Below are positions 8,600 to 17,658 of a stretch of DNA of 34,810 nucleotides, piece by piece. The notes beneath the pieces were generated by a model. That model saw only the letters and a list, made by a program, of their open reading frames with translations. It was not told the origin of the DNA and did no database searches. Source of the stretch: Thermoanaerobaculia bacterium (GTDB taxonomy: Bacteria; Acidobacteriota; Thermoanaerobaculia; JALWYX01); contig JALWYX010000073.1 in the NCBI GenBank assembly GCA_027078415.1, forward strand, positions 1-34,810, read 5' to 3'. The position numbers and the translations under genes were made by a program. Position 1 is the first letter of the stretch, and every line of letters starts with the position of its first letter.

Positions 8600-10720
8600 T
8601 CATTTGGCAAGTGAATATTTAAGACGCTTGTTGTCTCTTTTTTTCACACCAGGTAAGTAACACTTGTGGTAGTATTCTTTTACCATTCTATCGGATGAGA
8701 AATAGGTAAGGGAGGAGATAAGTGACCAACGCATAATTTTAACCCATTCCTTGGGAAAATTTTCATCGTCACGTCTGAAATATAGAGGAATAACCTCATT
8801 TTCAAGTATGTCGTATAGTTCTTCAGCATCCTTCTCATCTTTATTTTCTTCCTCTCTGCGATCAACACTGAAAATCCATCCGTTCTTACCGTTATAACCT
8901 TCTACCCACCACCCATCAGCCACACTTAGATTAGGAATAGCGTTAGCAGCTGCCTTTTGACCACTTGTACCGCTAGCTTCAAGAGGTGCTTTAGGTGTAT
9001 TGAGCCACAAATCTACCCCTTGAACGAGCATTTTAGCAACTCGCATATCGTAATCTTCTATAAAAAATATTTTTCCAAGAAATTCTTTACTTCTTGATAA
9101 AGAAAAAATATCTTGTACCAATTGTTGTCCTTCCATATCAGCAGGATGTGCCTTACCAGCAAAAATCAGTTTAACTGGCCTTTCTGGATCATTCAAAATA
9201 GTAAGCAATCTTGATTTATCGTGAAATATCAATCCAGCTCTTTTATAGGAAGCAAAACGGCGTGCAAAACCTATGAGCATAGCCTTCTCATCCAACAACT
9301 CTTCAACCGCCTTCAGATCAAAGGGCGAACTTCCGTGTCTGGCGATCTGTCTTACCAACCTTCTTTTTATAAACGCAAGCAGATTTCTTTTTTGTACAAT
9401 ATGCGCTTGCCAGATAGATTTAAGATCTATTTTTGCTAAAAGTAATTCAGCTTTAGAACGCAAAACTACTTCAGGCCAATTCAACCCTACATGCTCATTT
9501 AGAAGAGTATCCACAGATTCTCCTACCCAAGTTTTCAAATGTACTCCATTTGTTATAGGAAATATAGTTTTCTTGGTCTCCTCCAAAAGTTCTCGCCATA
9601 TAACGTTGGAAGTATGAGCATGCACCTTACTAACTCCATTTACAAATTCGGAAGTTCTTATGGCCAAAGCTGTAAGATTCCAATTCCATTTATCGTCTTT
9701 ATAAGAAGCCAAATTCTGTATTTCAGTAAAATCTAAACTATTCTGCTTCAACCACGGACCCAAGTATTTACCTACTATATCGCTACCAAACGTTTCGTTC
9801 CCTGCAGGTACCGGAGTATGTGTAGTAAATACAGTGTTACTAGCAACATTAGCTATTCTATCCTTAATCTCACCATCTAAAGTTGCAATTCTAGCCAGTT
9901 GTAAAAGGGCGCAATGACTTTCATTTATATGAAAACAATCAACATCAATACCTATTAAATCAAGCGCTTTAAACCCTCCTATACCGATAACCATCTCTTG
10001 TACAAATCTCATCTCTCTGTTGTCAATGTACAATATATTAGTTATTGGACGTAGATGAGAAGGATTTTCAGGCACATCGGTATCGAGAAGAATTAATTTA
10101 ACTCTACCTACTTCAGCTAACCACAACCTAACTTTTACACTCTCTTCACCTACAGGTACTTCTATATAAAGATCTTTTCCATATTGGTCAACTATCACCT
10201 TCAACGGCAATCTATAAAAATCGTAATAGGGGTAATGGTGTTGTTGCCTACCAAACTGATCTATAGTTTGATGAAAGTAACCGTTTCTATAAAGCAAACC
10301 AATTCCTATTATCGGTATACCCAGGTCGCTAGCACTTTTTAAGTGATCACCAGCTAAAACACCAAGTCCCCCAGAGTAGAGAGCTAAAGAATGGTGTAAA
10401 CCGTACTCCATAGAAAAATATGCAACTGTGGGGGATTCTAGATTGTTACTTTTAGCCAAATAGTTATCCAGATCGTTTAAAACCTTGCCGTACAAAGAAA
10501 TAAAAGTATCGTTTCCGCTTAGAGCTTTCCATTTTTCGTGATCTGTGTTAATTAGCACTTCCACAGGGTTATGATACATAGCCCAACTGTCTGCATTGAT
10601 TTGAGAAAAGAGGATTTGCGAGTCGCGATCCCAACTCCAACGCAGGTTGTAAGCTATATCGTATATGCGTTTAAATTCCTTTGGCACGTGTAATTCTTCT
10701 ACAATTCTCGAGTTAAACAT
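8600..10720 (-). CDS. glgP: Alpha-glucan phosphorylase (GT35)
   Basis: This cytosolic PLP enzyme releases glucose-1-phosphate from the non-reducing ends of glycogen or maltodextrin. The N-terminal region has VAYFSMEYGLHHSLALYSGGLG and AGDHLKSASDLG. The centre has FTTHTPVPAGNETF and TNGVHLKTW, and the C-terminal half has the PLP-lysine segment EASGTSGQKAAANA (Lys589) followed by LSVADGWWVEGY. At 706 residues it belongs to the shorter bacterial/archaeal subfamily common in thermophiles. The ATG at 10720 follows GGAGATAACG, which lies in the end of the upstream GH57 gene. The intergenic gap is two bases, so the two are co-translated. Its job is glycogen breakdown, paired with the branching enzyme next to it. 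Confidence 0.92.
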   Translation of the reverse strand: MFNSRIVEELHVPKEFKRIYDIAYNLRWSWDRDSQILFSQINADSWAMYHNPVEVLINTDHEKWKALSGNDTFISLYGKVLNDLDNYLAKSNNLESPTVAYFSMEYGLHHSLALYSGGLGVLAGDHLKSASDLGIPIIGIGLLYRNGYFHQTIDQFGRQQHHYPYYDFYRLPLKVIVDQYGKDLYIEVPVGEESVKVRLWLAEVGRVKLILLDTDVPENPSHLRPITNILYIDNREMRFVQEMVIGIGGFKALDLIGIDVDCFHINESHCALLQLARIATLDGEIKDRIANVASNTVFTTHTPVPAGNETFGSDIVGKYLGPWLKQNSLDFTEIQNLASYKDDKWNWNLTALAIRTSEFVNGVSKVHAHTSNVIWRELLEETKKTIFPITNGVHLKTWVGESVDTLLNEHVGLNWPEVVLRSKAELLLAKIDLKSIWQAHIVQKRNLLAFIKRRLVRQIARHGSSPFDLKAVEELLDEKAMLIGFARRFASYKRAGLIFHDKSRLLTILNDPERPVKLIFAGKAHPADMEGQQLVQDIFSLSRSKEFLGKIFFIEDYDMRVAKMLVQGVDLWLNTPKAPLEASGTSGQKAAANAIPNLSVADGWWVEGYNGKNGWIFSVDRREEENKDEKDAEELYDILENEVIPLYFRRDDENFPKEWVKIMRWSLISSLTYFSSDRMVKEYYHKCYLPGVKKRDNKRLKYSLAK

Positions 10721-10722
10721 CG

Positions 10723-12627
10723 TTATCTCCTAACTAAAGGGAAAAGTGCAAAGTCGTCTTCAGCAACAATTTTATTATTAAATAATATATCATCCAAATT
10801 TTTCAAATGTTGTTTGACCCTACTAGTTGCATACTCAGCCGCAGAATTCATAGTTATAAGAAAAGGCCAATCGGAAGCAGAAGCCAGAAGTAGTTGTCTA
10901 AATGCCATACCCTTTAATTTCTTACTTAACTTACCACTCCTTATAAATTCTACAGTTTTCTCCTCAGCTTCTTTTAAAGCAAACCATATCCATCTATTCT
11001 TAGGGTTTGTCCAAACTCTATGATCCCCTCCCTCTCCCCATGAACCTTCTTTTAGCTTAAATTTTAGTTTTTTTTCGGACCTTGAAAGTTCTTCAAGAGG
11101 TGTAGTAGGTATAACGGTATTACCCTTTAAAGCTTTCTCTAACACCTTTTCTAGCCACTTAGGACCTTCATACCACCAATGTCCAAACAACTCAGCATCA
11201 AAAGGGCAAGTAACTATACCATCTTCACATCCGGGTAGGTGTGAAACAAGGTCTATAAAATGATCAGCTTGTTCTTCTATTACCTTCTCTGCATCTTTAG
11301 GCCAGTAAGGCAACTTATCTCCTAAATCAGCTTCAGGATCGGTAACTTTCCATATACGCAACCCTGTTACTTCATGACGCTTGTGAAAATCAAGATAGTT
11401 AGGATTACCTGGATATCCAACAAAGCGAGACCACACTTGTCTAGCAGTGTGAGGTTCACGAGCAAAAACAGCTACATTTGAGTTACCTACAAAAATAGGT
11501 CTTGCCAAAAGCCAACTTTGCTTTTTTATCTCTGCTATCATTTTCTGTTCTATCCCATGGCGTTGTTTATCTTCCAAAAACCAATCTGGAGCATAAGGAA
11601 CCAGAGGCTCTCCTCCCAATATAAGATGCGAATCCACCACTGTCCACAACAAACCTTCTTTCTCTAGAAAAATTTCTACTCCAGCTCTGTATTTCTCACT
11701 AGCTCCTGTTACTTCATGTACCCATTTACCTCCCGGCCTATAGGCACATTCAGGTAACCATATACCTTTAGGTTCAATTCCAAACAGACGTCTATGCAGT
11801 TTGCAACTACCTTTTAAAGCCCATCTAATAGTCTCTTTTCTATGTACAAGCGGTAAGTACAAATGAGAAGCAACAGATGTAGAGCTTTCTATTACCTGTT
11901 TACGAGCAAGGTAAGAGATCAAAGAGATAAGATCTTTGTCAAAAAAAGACCATTTATCCCTTATAGAACACAACTCTTCTTCCCACCAATCTGCTAGAGG
12001 ATGAATTTTTTTTCCTTTAGCTGCTGCATGAAGTCTTGCCTCCAGATAATTATCAACTATACCTTTCACCCTGCTATCCGCTAACTGAGCAGCCAACACT
12101 GGAGTTATAGAAAAAGTTAGTAATTTTCTATGATTTAGCTCTCCTAATCTCCAAATAAAATAAAGAATAGGTATATAACAATGTACAATCGCCTCAGCTA
12201 ACCATTCTTCACCGTGCGGCCATTTACCATACCCTATAACCCACGGAAGATGAGCATGCAAAACGAAAGCTAATCTTCTAGGTGTAATTTCTTTCTCCCC
12301 CGGAGGCCCGAAGATAGGAGGGACATCTAAAGGTTTATGAGGCCTAGGTGCAGGTTGAAAATGTTCTTTAGTCTCTATCCTAAGAGCACCACGTAGAGCT
12401 TTAGAAAAATCTCTAACAATCTCCTTTCTAAAACCTGCTTTTTTTTCTACAGCTAAAAGTTTAACCCATTTCTTTACTGTCCGTTCAGTTATACCAAAAG
12501 CCTCAGCTACCTTTTTAAAGTCTTTTACTTTAAAATAGAGGTCAACTAACTCTCTACGCGCCGTTTCACGAACTTCTTTTCTAGGATGCCGCAGCCTATA
12601 ACGAAATGAGAAATTTCTAATATGCAC
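10723..12627 (-). CDS. GH57 1,4-alpha-glucan branching enzyme with N-terminal helix-turn-helix
   Basis: Residues about 118-634 form a GH57 enzyme of the archaeal/thermophile branching type (DUF1957-containing). RRLAFVLHAHLPWVIGYG opens the catalytic barrel, the nucleophile is Glu293 in GIWLPECAY, and the acid/base is Asp477 in CPFDAELFGHWWYEG. These enzymes introduce alpha-1,6 branches into glycogen. Residues 1-60 are unrelated: they include DFKKVAEAFGITERTVKKWV, a clear helix-turn-helix, followed by a Pro-rich linker (about 85-115). An N-terminal DNA-binding-like domain is not usual for this family. The GTG start at 12627 lies one codon after the TAG of the collagen-like gene and in the same frame, with no well-spaced Shine-Dalgarno, so reinitiation after that stop is likely. 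The downstream glgP starts two bases after this stop. Confidence 0.88.
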   Translation of the reverse strand: MHIRNFSFRYRLRHPRKEVRETARRELVDLYFKVKDFKKVAEAFGITERTVKKWVKLLAVEKKAGFRKEIVRDFSKALRGALRIETKEHFQPAPRPHKPLDVPPIFGPPGEKEITPRRLAFVLHAHLPWVIGYGKWPHGEEWLAEAIVHCYIPILYFIWRLGELNHRKLLTFSITPVLAAQLADSRVKGIVDNYLEARLHAAAKGKKIHPLADWWEEELCSIRDKWSFFDKDLISLISYLARKQVIESSTSVASHLYLPLVHRKETIRWALKGSCKLHRRLFGIEPKGIWLPECAYRPGGKWVHEVTGASEKYRAGVEIFLEKEGLLWTVVDSHLILGGEPLVPYAPDWFLEDKQRHGIEQKMIAEIKKQSWLLARPIFVGNSNVAVFAREPHTARQVWSRFVGYPGNPNYLDFHKRHEVTGLRIWKVTDPEADLGDKLPYWPKDAEKVIEEQADHFIDLVSHLPGCEDGIVTCPFDAELFGHWWYEGPKWLEKVLEKALKGNTVIPTTPLEELSRSEKKLKFKLKEGSWGEGGDHRVWTNPKNRWIWFALKEAEEKTVEFIRSGKLSKKLKGMAFRQLLLASASDWPFLITMNSAAEYATSRVKQHLKNLDDILFNNKIVAEDDFALFPLVRR

Positions 12628-12630
12628 CTT

Positions 12631-13776
12631 CTATTGCCTAGTTACATGCCAAGTAAGCCCCCACCTTTTGCAACTAGGAATCATCTTCTCAGAAGTTGAG
12701 CGTACTTCTATATCAAGTATATACTCTTTACTCACTCCACATCTGGCAGGTATCTGGGTAACTAGATAAACAGGAGTACCATTTATTGAAGTTGAACATC
12801 TGCGCCTTGAATAGAAACAACGCTCCTTCTCACTTGACCAACATAAACATACAATTGCCGAGGTTCCCTCTCCAGGAGAAATAAAATCTATATTTACAAA
12901 AGGAGCCTTACCCCACTTAGTAAAAGGTAAACATCTACGAGCTTCTACCTCAAATCGTAAAGAGAAAAGGTCTATATCTCCCCTCGGGAGTATATGACCA
13001 CTTACAACACCTCTATCGTTTTGTGGATAGCCATCTATAACTGGTACTACCGAACTCCAACTATTAGGAAAATCCTGTTCTCCAAAAGAGTCGTCTCCCA
13101 AAATTCCACACTCCTTGATCTCAGGTAAGGAATCGTCAGTTTCAAGCTTATAAGTTGAATCTTCAGAAATAACGTTTTTATCCCCTTCTCTCGGTAAAAC
13201 ACTTTCAAACAACGGTGTACATATAGCTTCTGCGTTCTCATCGAAACCTGAAACAAAAGAGCCTGCAGGACACATCTGGCCTGCTAACAAAGCGGTTCCA
13301 GGAGGTCCTGGGGGGCCAGGAGGACCTGGAGGTCCCATAGGACCACGAGGACCACGAGCACCTTTTACAACCTGCGGAACAACTTTGCTCTCTTCAACCA
13401 CAGTCACGTGAAAAATATCGTAATCCTCAGGAAGAGGACCTCTGGCAACAGTAAGCAGATAACTACCTTCCTTTATCTTCTCAGGCAATCTAACTATTAT
13501 AAACTCCTTAGAAAAATCTATTATTTCTAAATTGTAAAGTCCCAGTGTTACCAGAGGGTACCCCTCAGGAAACTTTTCATCTGCAATCAAATCTATACCT
13601 TCTATTCTTAAAACACCTTCTTGTTTATCAACAAAAACACTTGTTATAACCAACTGAGGAGGTAAACTGTCTATACCGGATCGATTCTGATTTTCTTCCT
13701 TAGATAGCTGGACATTATCGTTAGCTAAAATAGAAACGGCAACAAACACCCCTAACAAAATAGAAGTTTTTTTCAT
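12631..13776 (-). CDS. Secreted collagen-like protein with IPT/TIG-like domain and Cys-rich C-terminus
   Basis: The ATG at 13776 has AAGGAGGG seven bases upstream and gives a signal peptide, MKKTSILLGVFVAVSILA. Residues about 36-125 look like an IPT/TIG beta-sandwich (PQLVITSVFVD, GVLRIEGIDL, EGSYLLTVARGP). Residues 139-162 are eight uninterrupted Gly-x-Y triplets (encoded 13291-13362), mostly Gly-Pro-Pro, able to form a short collagen triple helix. The C-terminal half has ten cysteines and a segment (GVVSGHILPRGDIDLFSLRF) like pre-peptidase C-terminal domains. Bacterial IPT plus collagen proteins are usually surface or exported structural proteins, and this one may trimerise through the triple helix. 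It heads the operon with the two glucan enzymes, though no functional link is evident. A TTG start further upstream (13809) is less likely. Confidence 0.8.
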   Translation of the reverse strand: MKKTSILLGVFVAVSILANDNVQLSKEENQNRSGIDSLPPQLVITSVFVDKQEGVLRIEGIDLIADEKFPEGYPLVTLGLYNLEIIDFSKEFIIVRLPEKIKEGSYLLTVARGPLPEDYDIFHVTVVEESKVVPQVVKGARGPRGPMGPPGPPGPPGPPGTALLAGQMCPAGSFVSGFDENAEAICTPLFESVLPREGDKNVISEDSTYKLETDDSLPEIKECGILGDDSFGEQDFPNSWSSVVPVIDGYPQNDRGVVSGHILPRGDIDLFSLRFEVEARRCLPFTKWGKAPFVNIDFISPGEGTSAIVCLCWSSEKERCFYSRRRCSTSINGTPVYLVTQIPARCGVSKEYILDIEVRSTSEKMIPSCKRWGLTWHVTRQ

Positions 13777-13849
13777 CTGAACCCTCCTTCTGGGTAAGTT
13801 TAGCAGCAAAAACTAATAAAATAAAGAAAATCGATGGAGGTATCTACAA
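13777..13849. promoter_or_regulatory. 73-bp divergent promoter region
   Basis: This is the only space for promoters of the collagen-GH57-glgP operon (leftward) and the TPR-ArsA operon (rightward). It contains the AAGGAGGG ribosome-binding site of the leftward gene, GGAGGT for the rightward gene, and a central A/T-rich stretch (about 13811-13832) with TAAAAT and TTTATT -10-like boxes. No convincing -35 can be assigned on either strand. Confidence 0.3.
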
Positions 13850-14767
13850 ATGAAAAAATTAACTCTTTTCCTCATACTAACACTGTTTATTTACTCTTTC
13901 CAGTCTAAAGATAACACGTTTCAACAAATAACTAAACTATACGAAAAGGGGAAAATCAGTGAAGCTATAGAAAGGTTGAAGGAGCATCTTCAACAAACTC
14001 CTACCCCAGAAGGATACCTATTGTTGGCAAAATTATACAAAGAGATAGGAGCACTCTCGCTATCTAAAGAAGCTATAAAAAAAGCGATAGAAATGGACCC
14101 TAGTAAATCTGATTATTACTCCTTTTTAGGGTCGTTATACTCTTTTTTAGGTGACTGGGAACAATCTCTAAAGTACTTCGAAAAAAGTGTACAGTTGAAT
14201 CCTCAAGACTTTGCTTCATGGTTTAACATAGGAAATCTATACCTTAGATTTGGGAAACCAGAAGAAGCTATACGAGCTTTTGAGAAGTTCCTTTCTATCC
14301 AAGAGGACGATCAATTTGCATACGTAAATACAGCGTTATCCCTACTGTTTGCAAATAGGGAAAAAGAAGCTCTAGAGATAATAGATAAAGGAATAAAAAA
14401 ACTTAACAATTCAACGTTTCTCAAACATGCACTAGCAAGAATCCTTGCAACAGCTCAAGATGAATCGTTGAGAAATCCAGAAAAAGCCTACACTATAGCT
14501 CATGAAATAGCAACAACAGAACCTTCAGAAGAAGCCCTGCTTACTGTTGGATTATCTTTGGCTTCCTTAGGAGATTTTCAATCAGCATACAAAACAATTT
14601 CAGAAACGATAAAAGTTCTAGAATCCCGAAATATACGCAATGACCTATTACCTTACCTATATTCTCTGCTCGATAAATTTAACAACAATGAAATAGAAAT
14701 AGCTCCTTGGTACAAGTTGAAATATCTATTACCCCAGCACCTTTTAGAGTATAAATTGGGAGATTAG
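13850..14767 (+). CDS. Exported TPR-repeat protein
   Basis: The start has GGAGGT eight bases upstream and a signal-peptide-like N-terminus (MKKLTLFLILTLFIYSF) without a lipobox Cys. The rest is helical with about five or six tetratricopeptide repeats. The clearest are residues 70-100 (DYYSFLGSLYSFLGDWEQSLKYFEKSVQLNP) at positions 14114-14206 and the next at ASWFNIGNLYLRFGKPEEAI. TPR arrays are protein-binding scaffolds, and the ligand is unknown. The stop is six bases before the first ArsA-like gene, so the three genes form an operon. Confidence 0.78.
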   Translation: MKKLTLFLILTLFIYSFQSKDNTFQQITKLYEKGKISEAIERLKEHLQQTPTPEGYLLLAKLYKEIGALSLSKEAIKKAIEMDPSKSDYYSFLGSLYSFLGDWEQSLKYFEKSVQLNPQDFASWFNIGNLYLRFGKPEEAIRAFEKFLSIQEDDQFAYVNTALSLLFANREKEALEIIDKGIKKLNNSTFLKHALARILATAQDESLRNPEKAYTIAHEIATTEPSEEALLTVGLSLASLGDFQSAYKTISETIKVLESRNIRNDLLPYLYSLLDKFNNNEIEIAPWYKLKYLLPQHLLEYKLGD

Positions 14768-14773
14768 AACAAA

Positions 14774-15640
14774 ATGATGAAGTTAAAAAGAGCCGATATG
14801 TGGATAGTATCAGGAAAAGGCGGAGTAGGTAAAACCACTGTAAGTGCCCTTATAGCAAAAATCTTGGCAGTAAATAGTAAAGTTCTTCTAATAGAAGTAG
14901 ATCCCAGAGAAAGTGTGCACCGTATCCTTGGAGTGCCACCATCTGGAGGAGATATAAAACAGGTGACAGATAACCTATTTATACAAAACCTTAAGCCTCG
15001 TAGTGTAATAGATGAATTGGTAAAAAGACGTGTAAAAATAGGAATTCTAGTAAGACGAATACTACGCAGCCCGGTATACCTAAGCTTTGCAGATGGATCA
15101 CCGGGACTAAAAGAATTGGCAGTTTTTGGATACGCTTTGGATATGGTAGAAGGGATAGAAGGAGGATACAAACGGTTCGACTGTGTTGTACTTGATGCAC
15201 CTGCGACAGGACACGGTTTGTCACTTATAATGGCCCCTTTTTTAGTATCTTCAACTATAAAAAAAGGACCATTTGGAGAACTTGCGAAGAAACTAGCTAA
15301 ATTCGTTTACGACAGAGAAAGATGTAAAATAGCTGTGGTAGCTACTGCAGAAGAGATGCCTATAACAGAAACTATAGAATTTATAGAAAAGCTGAAACAA
15401 AGAATAGAAAGGGAACCTGAAATAGTGGTAATAAATCAACTATATCCTCCATTTCCTACAAATCATACTCCGAAAAAAACTGAAAAACACCTCTATTTAT
15501 GGTGGCGAAGACACGAGATAAATCTATCGCAGATAGAGAGATTAACAAAGTACTGGGGAAAAGCTATCTACAAAATACCCTTAGTAAAATCAGAAAACAA
15601 CGACTTAGTAGATCTAATAAAAACAAAAATTTACGTATGA
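14774..15640 (+). CDS. ArsA/Get3-family ATPase, first of a pair
   Basis: This is a SIMIBI-class P-loop ATPase with an intact deviant Walker A, SGKGGVGKTT (including the signature Lys after Ser-Gly), a switch I-like region starting EVDPRESVHRILG, and the ArsA-type switch II VVLDAPATGHGLSL. It later has VVATAEEMPITET and the nucleotide-base-binding VVINQLYPP. The 288-residue length fits a single ArsA half. There is no CxxC zinc motif of Get3 and no set of arsenite-binding cysteines, and no arsB or arsR nearby, so arsenite export is unlikely. ATG codons at 14774 and 14777 are both possible. It overlaps the second ATPase gene by ATGA, suggesting a stoichiometric heterodimer. The cellular role of such bacterial ArsA pairs is not established to my knowledge. 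Confidence 0.82.
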   Translation: MMKLKRADMWIVSGKGGVGKTTVSALIAKILAVNSKVLLIEVDPRESVHRILGVPPSGGDIKQVTDNLFIQNLKPRSVIDELVKRRVKIGILVRRILRSPVYLSFADGSPGLKELAVFGYALDMVEGIEGGYKRFDCVVLDAPATGHGLSLIMAPFLVSSTIKKGPFGELAKKLAKFVYDRERCKIAVVATAEEMPITETIEFIEKLKQRIEREPEIVVINQLYPPFPTNHTPKKTEKHLYLWWRRHEINLSQIERLTKYWGKAIYKIPLVKSENNDLVDLIKTKIYV

Positions 15641-16671
15641 AAAAAATATACCTTTTCATAGGAGGTGGTGGTGTAGGCAAAACTACTATAGCAGCTTCTT
15701 TCGCCGTTCTATGTGCTAGAGAATACAATCTAAACACCCTTGTAATGACTTTCGATCCTTCGTTGCGTTTAAAAGATTCACTAGGTATATCTGAGAAAGC
15801 GAGCGGAGAAATAGTAAAAGTAGAAAACAATCTTTTTGCATCTCTGTTAGATGCAAAAAAAACGTTCGATAACGTAGTAAAACGCTACGCGCCGGACCAA
15901 AAAAGCGCTGAACGAATATTGCAAAATAGATACTACAACCACCTTGCCGGCTCGCTATCTGGAATGATTGAATATATGGCGGTCGAAAAATTGTACGAAG
16001 TATGGTCAGAAAACAAGTTTGATACTATAATAGTTGATACACCTCCTACACGCAACGCTTTAGATTTCCTAAACGCACCTAAAAGAATAGTAACATTTAT
16101 AGAAAGCGGAGCACTAAAAATTGCTCTATATCCTTGGTTTGACAAAGACGGGAGAATAAGAACTCTAAAGAGATTAGGATTTATAGGTAAAAAATTTGAA
16201 TCGTGGTTAGATGAACTAGTAGGTCTTGATCTTCTAAGAGATATGCACGAATTTTTCGCCGCCTTTGGTCCCCTCTTCGACGGCTTTAAAAAAAGGGCAC
16301 TAGAAGTAGAACAACTACTAGCAAATGAGATATCTATCTTTAACCTGGTAGCAAGTCCAAATCCCAAATTAGTACCAGACACAATTTTCTTCGCCAGAGA
16401 AATCCAAAAAAGAAACTACAATTTAGGACCTGTACTTGTTAATAAAATCCATCCTCCCGTACAAAAACAAACAACTTTACAAGGTGAAGAGATACCACAA
16501 TGGCTAGGTAAAAGAGATATGGAAGGAGTAGAAATGCTAAAAGATCTACTTTCAGGACATCCTGTTATAGAAATCCCCTTACTACCAGAAGAAGTAGAAA
16601 ATTTAAATCACCTGCACAATATCGCAACTACATACTTGAATAAATTATTTAAAGTCCAACAAAGATCGTAG
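15637..16671 (+). CDS. ArsA/Get3-family ATPase, second of a pair
   Basis: This is the second half of the ArsA-like pair, about 344 residues from the ATG at 15637, which overlaps the first ATPase's stop as ATGA. The P-loop reads IGGGGVGKTT: the catalytic P-loop Lys is kept, but the signature Lys that normally reaches across the dimer is Gly. Switch II is IIVDTPPTRNALDFL rather than DAPATGH, and the base-binding strand is PVLVNKIHPP. The asymmetry between the two partners suggests that one shared active site differs from the other. An open frame extends 46 codons upstream but overlaps coding sequence of the first gene, so I treat it as a shadow. The gene ends the TPR-ArsA-ArsA operon, followed by a 159-bp convergent gap. 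Confidence 0.82.
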   Translation: MKKIYLFIGGGGVGKTTIAASFAVLCAREYNLNTLVMTFDPSLRLKDSLGISEKASGEIVKVENNLFASLLDAKKTFDNVVKRYAPDQKSAERILQNRYYNHLAGSLSGMIEYMAVEKLYEVWSENKFDTIIVDTPPTRNALDFLNAPKRIVTFIESGALKIALYPWFDKDGRIRTLKRLGFIGKKFESWLDELVGLDLLRDMHEFFAAFGPLFDGFKKRALEVEQLLANEISIFNLVASPNPKLVPDTIFFAREIQKRNYNLGPVLVNKIHPPVQKQTTLQGEEIPQWLGKRDMEGVEMLKDLLSGHPVIEIPLLPEEVENLNHLHNIATTYLNKLFKVQQRS

Positions 16672-16830: not shown

Positions 16831-17427
16831 CTAAAAATCTCCTTCTTTTACGTAAGGGTAACTCCAAATAATTAGTTGCAACAATACCGACTTCATCCAT
16901 GCCTGATGCATCTTATCTACATCTTCTGCAGAATGACCTTTCTTTGCAAGAAACGGTTTTAGTGTATATGTAATAGGATAAAACAGAGCAACAAGATATC
17001 TAAAAGGAATATGATCAACCGAAGAAACGTTATCCGTTTGATTTTTTTTGGAACGGTGGTGACGCAGACCAATCTCATATTGATAGTTTAACCATTGCTG
17101 GTCGTAATTGGCACTAGCAGTATCCAGAATCCACTGACCAAATCGTTTGCGAACAGCGTTTAGATAACTCTCAATAGGTTCTCCTGTACCCTTATCTGTA
17201 AAGTAATAAAGAAGATGCGGATTATCCCCCACAAAACCGTACCAAACATCGAGAATATCTTCAACTTGATCTTTTAAAACATCGTACGAGATCCGCAAAT
17301 AACGCACATCTTCATCAGAAAAAAGCACACTCTTTTTAAGAAGTTCAAAATCTTCCAGAGAAACAGGAGAAGTGGGAAGATTAGCAGAACCGTAATCGTA
17401 ACCTGGAATAGAAGGTCTTTGGCTCAT
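16831..17427 (-). CDS. Protoglobin (single-domain haem protein)
   Basis: About 198 residues, closely following the protoglobin pattern: IPGYDYG near the N-terminus, SPVSLEDFELLKKSVLFS, DVWYGFVGDNPHLLYYF, then FGQWILDTA, YQYEIGLRHHR containing the presumed proximal His, HIPFRYLVALFYPIT, KPFLAKKGHSAEDV and the C-terminal WSYPYVKEGDF. Protoglobins bind O2, CO and NO in a buried haem. Here the domain stands alone with no cyclase or kinase output. The ATG at 17427 is preceded by a near-perfect AAGGAGGTG and a TATAAT box, so the upstream in-frame ATG at 17514 is rejected. It has its own promoter, downstream of the ABC ATPase gene on the same strand. Confidence 0.92.
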   Translation of the reverse strand: MSQRPSIPGYDYGSANLPTSPVSLEDFELLKKSVLFSDEDVRYLRISYDVLKDQVEDILDVWYGFVGDNPHLLYYFTDKGTGEPIESYLNAVRKRFGQWILDTASANYDQQWLNYQYEIGLRHHRSKKNQTDNVSSVDHIPFRYLVALFYPITYTLKPFLAKKGHSAEDVDKMHQAWMKSVLLQLIIWSYPYVKEGDF

Positions 17428-17431
17428 AAAA

Positions 17432-17440
17432 CACCTCCTT
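17432..17440 (-). promoter_or_regulatory. Strong Shine-Dalgarno AAGGAGGTG of the protoglobin gene
   Basis: On the minus strand AAGGAGGTG lies four bases before the ATG at 17427. It matches the 16S anti-SD almost completely and decides the start codon, excluding the 29-residue upstream extension. Confidence 0.85.
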
Positions 17441-17457
17441 TCTAAGGCTCTAAAACT

Positions 17458-17463
17458 ATTATA
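17458..17463 (-). promoter_or_regulatory. -10 box TATAAT of the protoglobin promoter
   Basis: A consensus TATAAT within GAGTATAAT lies about 30 bp upstream of the protoglobin ATG, giving a leader of roughly 20-25 bases with a good Shine-Dalgarno. No clear TTGACA-like -35 is found 16-18 bp upstream. The same GAGTATAAT context appears before the ABC ATPase gene. Confidence 0.6.
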
Positions 17464-17658
17464 CTCCAACAACACTACATACCCTTTATCCGCTGTACCA
17501 TCTCTTAGACACATTAATAGATAGTTATTCGCCTATCTAAAAATAAACTTTTTCTATTTCGGTTCTTCTGAAATCTAAAAACACAAGAGGACTATTTATT
17601 TATCCAGTTAGAAACATCTTTTACAATGTGCCAGATTCTCCCGACTACTAAAAATAGA

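Follow-up and report, generated by a model that had tools for sequence, protein, structure and literature searches.

A gene in the window, by which we mean the whole 34,810-nucleotide stretch analysed, joins a helix-turn-helix (HTH) domain to a GH57 protein of the branching-enzyme kind. The join is genuine and not an artefact: the HTH is read from the sole usual start codon, it is conserved in relatives, and the active-site residues of the enzyme are intact. With moderate confidence, the domain is assigned to the Fis/NtrC type. Our preferred explanation, which we regard as evenly balanced, is that such an HTH was joined long ago to a GH57 glycogen branching enzyme by way of a flexible linker, and that it serves to bind nucleic acid, in dimeric form and with DNA as the probable partner. 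The features concerned are as follows.

8600..10720, minus strand: alpha-glucan phosphorylase (DUF3417 + phosphorylase), downstream, 2 nt after the fusion gene; TIGR02094 at 729 bits; same neighbour in genome G004.
10723..12627, minus strand: HTH-GH57 fusion gene, 634 amino acids, from the open reading frame list with Pfam and NCBIfam matches; GTG start, the sole usual start before codon 123.
12619..12632, minus strand: start region, as judged from the sequence; AGAAGGTG (12632-12625) overlaps the GTG, and an ATT at codon 3 (12621-12619) lies 5 nt behind GAAGG.
12439..12579, minus strand: Fis/NtrC-type HTH domain, residues 17-63 (HTH proper 37-63, recognition helix 48-63), from HTH_28/HTH_23 matches and AF2 helices; kept in six orthologs.
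12292..12438, minus strand: flexible Pro-rich linker, residues 64-112; pLDDT below 50 for residues 63-109; diverges fast in relatives.
10780..12279, minus strand: GH57 branching-enzyme catalytic domain and BE_C helical region, residues 117-616, from PF03065, PF09210, 331 bits to 3n8t, and Foldseek.
11749..11751, minus strand: Glu293 codon, catalytic nucleophile by alignment to E183 of TK1436.
11593..11595, minus strand: Tyr345 codon, aligned to the flexible-loop tyrosine Y233 of TK1436.
11197..11199, minus strand: Asp477 codon, acid/base by alignment to D354 of TK1436.

Between codon 1 (GTG) and codon 123 (TTG) there is no in-frame ATG, GTG or TTG, and codon 123 falls inside barrel strand 1 (residues 117-125 in the AF2 model). 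An enzyme made from a usual start codon will therefore include the HTH. A start near residue 110, the weak point named in the first-pass annotation, is thereby excluded for the usual start codons. The opposing reading, in which the start codon has been misassigned, the HTH is spurious and the true protein begins near the barrel, draws on the ATG that stands a few residues ahead of the barrel in most GH57 relatives of the phylum, and on the GTG of the fusion gene, which lacks a well-spaced Shine-Dalgarno site. We reject it as barely credible because of the missing start codons; moreover, the HTH recurs in six orthologs, and those of family f4 have a clear GGAGG-type Shine-Dalgarno site and an ATG ahead of it, the start overlapping the end of galT. 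The ATT at codon 3 is better spaced to the Shine-Dalgarno sequence than the GTG and might be the real start; the HTH is part of the product with either. The stop of the upstream open reading frame precedes the GTG by one codon in the same frame. The product of that upstream frame (12631-13809, minus strand) is probably secreted and contains a short Gly-Pro repeat resembling collagen (Pfam Collagen at 2e-4, under the cut-off); translation likely begins at the ATG at 13776, which follows AGAAGGAGGG.

The remainder of the protein comprises a GH57 (beta/alpha)7 barrel and a BE_C helical region, as recognized by Foldseek and by Pfam (PF03065 at residues 120-512, 1.4e-22; PF09210 at 552-614, 7e-13; both above cut-offs). 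Two NCBIfam branching-enzyme models match at about 1e-110, with 376 and 369 bits; unlike the known GH57 branching enzymes, the window enzyme scores below their equivalog cut-offs of 1000 and 920, which belong to models covering only Thermococcales and Thermus. The best solved relatives by sequence are the branching enzymes 3n8t (331 bits), 5wu7, 3p0b and 1ufa, and a Foldseek search places the same structures on top (3p0b at E 2.8e-38, then 1ufa, 5wu7 and 3n8t). The enzymes concerned, TK1436 (3n8t), 5wu7 from Pyrococcus horikoshii and TT1467 from Thermus thermophilus (1ufa/3p0b), have the same catalytic domain over 490 residues and share with the window enzyme the nucleophile Glu, the acid/base Asp and BE_C and, as far as the gapped alignment shows, the loop tyrosine. 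They begin at the barrel, whereas the window enzyme has 116 residues with the HTH and linker first. Glu293, Tyr345 and Asp477 align with their TK1436 counterparts as listed, although the loop that carries Tyr345 is longer and gapped in the window enzyme. More than 90% of GH57 branching enzymes lack the flexible loop, whose tyrosine goes with the high-activity group and has had its role described (PMC10346327). The aligned tyrosine is present in the window enzyme and the f5 ortholog and absent from the f4 orthologs (L003-L007), so that branching strength may differ within the group. Branching activity of the window enzyme would be expected from these likenesses. The anatomy given in the first-pass annotation, an HTH and a Pro-rich linker followed by an intact GH57 domain with Glu293 and Asp477, is thus borne out by the Pfam matches, the AF2 helices and the TK1436 alignment. 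The structure prediction that it had proposed yields three N-terminal helices and then a disordered linker, with nine Pro residues within positions 63-117.

A search for further HTH-GH57 fusions, also proposed there, covered the window's own genome together with 60 relatives, 61 in all. It returned orthologs about 50% identical over GH57, and six of these, five in f4 and one in f5, carry the HTH-bearing extension at the same place; the seven members span three families of one class. Since six orthologs carry the HTH at this position, a chance HTH-like match is rejected. Pairwise identity within f4 is 50-79% for the HTH and falls to 20-36% for the linker. A simple counting method, applied to short stretches that show some saturation, puts dN/dS at 0.22-0.35 in the HTH, 0.36-0.72 in the linker and 0.05-0.28 in GH57, which points to purifying selection on the HTH that is weaker than on the enzyme. 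Among the GH57 relatives surveyed the fusion is unusual, in line with the first-pass annotation. In a survey of 149 genomes of the class, only the seven have a match into the HTH columns without stops. Among 396 genomes sampled from the phylum no further HTH-GH57 protein was found: three matches that extend into the HTH region read through stops, and the GH57 N-termini inspected begin at the barrel. G498 is the genome of a Chloroflexi record; of 301 genomes from its phylum, 44 gave a strong match, none with the HTH in an open frame. A search of plasmid records for named HTH fusions gave only two distant GH57 matches. Both halves of the protein are of known kinds; no paper in the literature searched combines GH57, branching enzyme and helix-turn-helix, and DNA binding is not mentioned in the available part of a review of prokaryotic alpha-glucan enzymes.

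On the GH57 tree the HTH carriers group with family f14 (support 88/85 to 90), whose orthologs (L055-L060) begin with a long tail rich in Ala, Lys and Pro where the HTH would be; f10, adjacent to this group, is without the HTH, as are the f3 enzymes. Two events are enough to explain this pattern, such as a gain followed by a loss in f14; that history, with the gain an old one, is what the tree favours, and a horizontal or recent fusion is accordingly disfavoured. A single clade of HTH carriers is not rejected by the AU test (p=0.09). With a profile built solely from the f4 HTHs, the window HTH reaches just 14.8 bits and ranks behind sigma-54 activators, so the case for common origin rests mainly on position in orthologous enzymes, and there may conceivably have been two independent fusions.

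The fusion gene lies next to glycogen genes. The next gene encodes alpha-glucan phosphorylase (GlgP) both in the window and in f5. The order in f4 is nucleotidyltransferase/phosphomannomutase, a second GH57, GalT and HTH-GH57, with GlgA called directly after the fusion gene in three of the five genomes, and f10 has the same gene order with the HTH absent. One GlgA was found in the window's genome, and a GH13 branching enzyme was not; together with the glycogen-gene neighbours, this makes the fusion enzyme the only branching-enzyme candidate found there and places it in glycogen metabolism. Further along the window, two adjacent ArsA-type ATPase genes, overlapping as listed, lie at 14774-16671 on the plus strand; a protoglobin gene comes next, at 16831-17514 on the minus strand.

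In Pfam, residues 24-58 of the window protein match HTH_28 with E 8.4e-5 and 23.0 bits, just short of the curated cut-off of 25, and HTH_23 with 1.9e-3; VAEAFGITERTVKKWV corresponds to residues 40-55. Helices at 17-34, 37-44 and 48-63 were predicted in two AF2 runs with pLDDT of about 70-81, the HTH part having no alignment behind it. Five of the seven members match HTH_8 (Fis; best 2.3e-7), the window copy not among them. The ortholog HTHs carry the pattern GG-x-x-x-AA-x-LG-S-x-x-T, and L12, R20, A23, R24, A41, G45, V51 and W54 are invariant across all seven. The T-V-R/K-R/K-W stretch of the recognition helix (TVRRW/TVKKW) is kept in six members; in the f5 ortholog this helix takes the form ETWEVAHW. 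Net charge over the first 62 residues divides them likewise: the window copy has +10 and the f4 copies +4 to +8, whereas f5 has -2. When the class was searched with a profile of the seven HTHs, the best non-GH57 matches were mostly C-terminal ends of larger proteins, and 20 of the 23 frames inspected had sigma-54 activator motifs. These NtrC-like activators (PF02954, HTH_8) have the same three-helix order and are the nearest profile neighbours in the class; they differ in carrying the HTH C-terminal to an AAA+ domain, whereas here it is N-terminal and fused to an enzyme, and in matching HTH_8, whereas the window copy matches HTH_28/HTH_23. Foldseek with the N-terminal model returned almost exclusively DNA-binding domains, including those of NtrC1 and NtrC4, none at a significant level (best E 1.0). 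A PDB sequence search with the HTH gave weak HTH matches and one repetitive designed protein, and nothing else.

From these features we infer that the HTH binds nucleic acid and forms a dimer; for DNA binding in particular we put the probability at about one half. It is made plausible by the basic recognition helix in six of the seven members (in the window, a helix-turn-helix of helices 37-44 and 48-63), and the NtrC-like helix order, the conserved TVR/K-R/KW, the positive charge and the sigma-54 activator HTHs as nearest profile matches count in its favour. Against it count the negative HTH of f5, the loss in f14, the HTH-less enzymes of f10 and f3, the higher dN/dS of the HTH than of GH57, and a promoter region with chance-level promoter matches and no inverted repeat. 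A serious rival, possible if somewhat doubtful in our estimate, holds that DNA binding is gone and that the fold has been reused as a protein-contact module, which dimerises the enzyme or attaches it to another protein, glycogen synthase or phosphorylase for instance. Reuse of the fold for oligomerisation was the alternative offered in the first-pass annotation. The f5 ortholog, which retains the fold and not the basic surface, fits this well; enzymes of the same pathway are encoded alongside (GlgP in the window and f5, GlgA and GalT in f4), and a long linker would suit docking. Retention of the recognition-helix motif and of positive charge in six members is what speaks against it. We consider it improbable that the HTH, left over from an old fusion, now serves no purpose and is decaying. 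Its replacement by a tail in f14, the degenerate charge in f5 and a dN/dS above that of GH57 would agree with decay, but that ratio is well below 1 and, wherever a pair gives a defined value, lower than the linker's, and the fold is still recognizable in every member across three families.

If the HTH does bind DNA, glycogen structure would be linked directly to gene control or to chromosome position. The enzyme part should branch glycogen as usual, and the HTH would either tether it to a genomic site or turn it into an enzyme that doubles as a regulator, as BirA does. PutA and NadR are further enzyme-regulator fusions in which a metabolic enzyme has an N-terminal DNA-binding-type domain. Group II biotin protein ligase BirA is likewise a metabolic enzyme with such a domain; its DNA binding and regulation have been demonstrated (PMC4016012), whereas those of HTH-GH57 are putative, and the HTH types differ. 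It seems unlikely, though worth stating, that the branching enzyme binds a specific DNA and that this binding answers to glycogen, with the result that gene expression is informed of the state of the store or that the chromosome serves as an anchor for glycogen synthesis. Which site would be bound, and whether glycogen state would alter the binding, is guesswork. The first-pass annotation had suggested that the enzyme reports glycogen state on its own operon, and this found no direct support: no inverted repeat of at least 8 turned up anywhere in 13700-13900, an interval that takes in the divergent promoter at 13777-13849 (a missing palindrome being weak evidence), promoter-like matches at 13777-13849 are no commoner than in shuffles, the ortholog operons are arranged differently, and one HTH is net negative. 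Autoregulation is a guess. The seven natural variants include, in f5, a ready-made charge-reversed control, and f14 offers a natural deletion.

Another N-terminal domain joined to GH57 occurs in the same class. In f3 genomes, DUF4912 precedes GH57 in proteins L017-L019 and L022-L029 (checked on L018, 3e-19); DUF4912 is not an HTH, and the f3 GH57 domains are distant, at 27-28% identity. One further f3 GH57 gene (L020, G054:C6) is, according to the genome search, broken by a TAG between the matched pieces.
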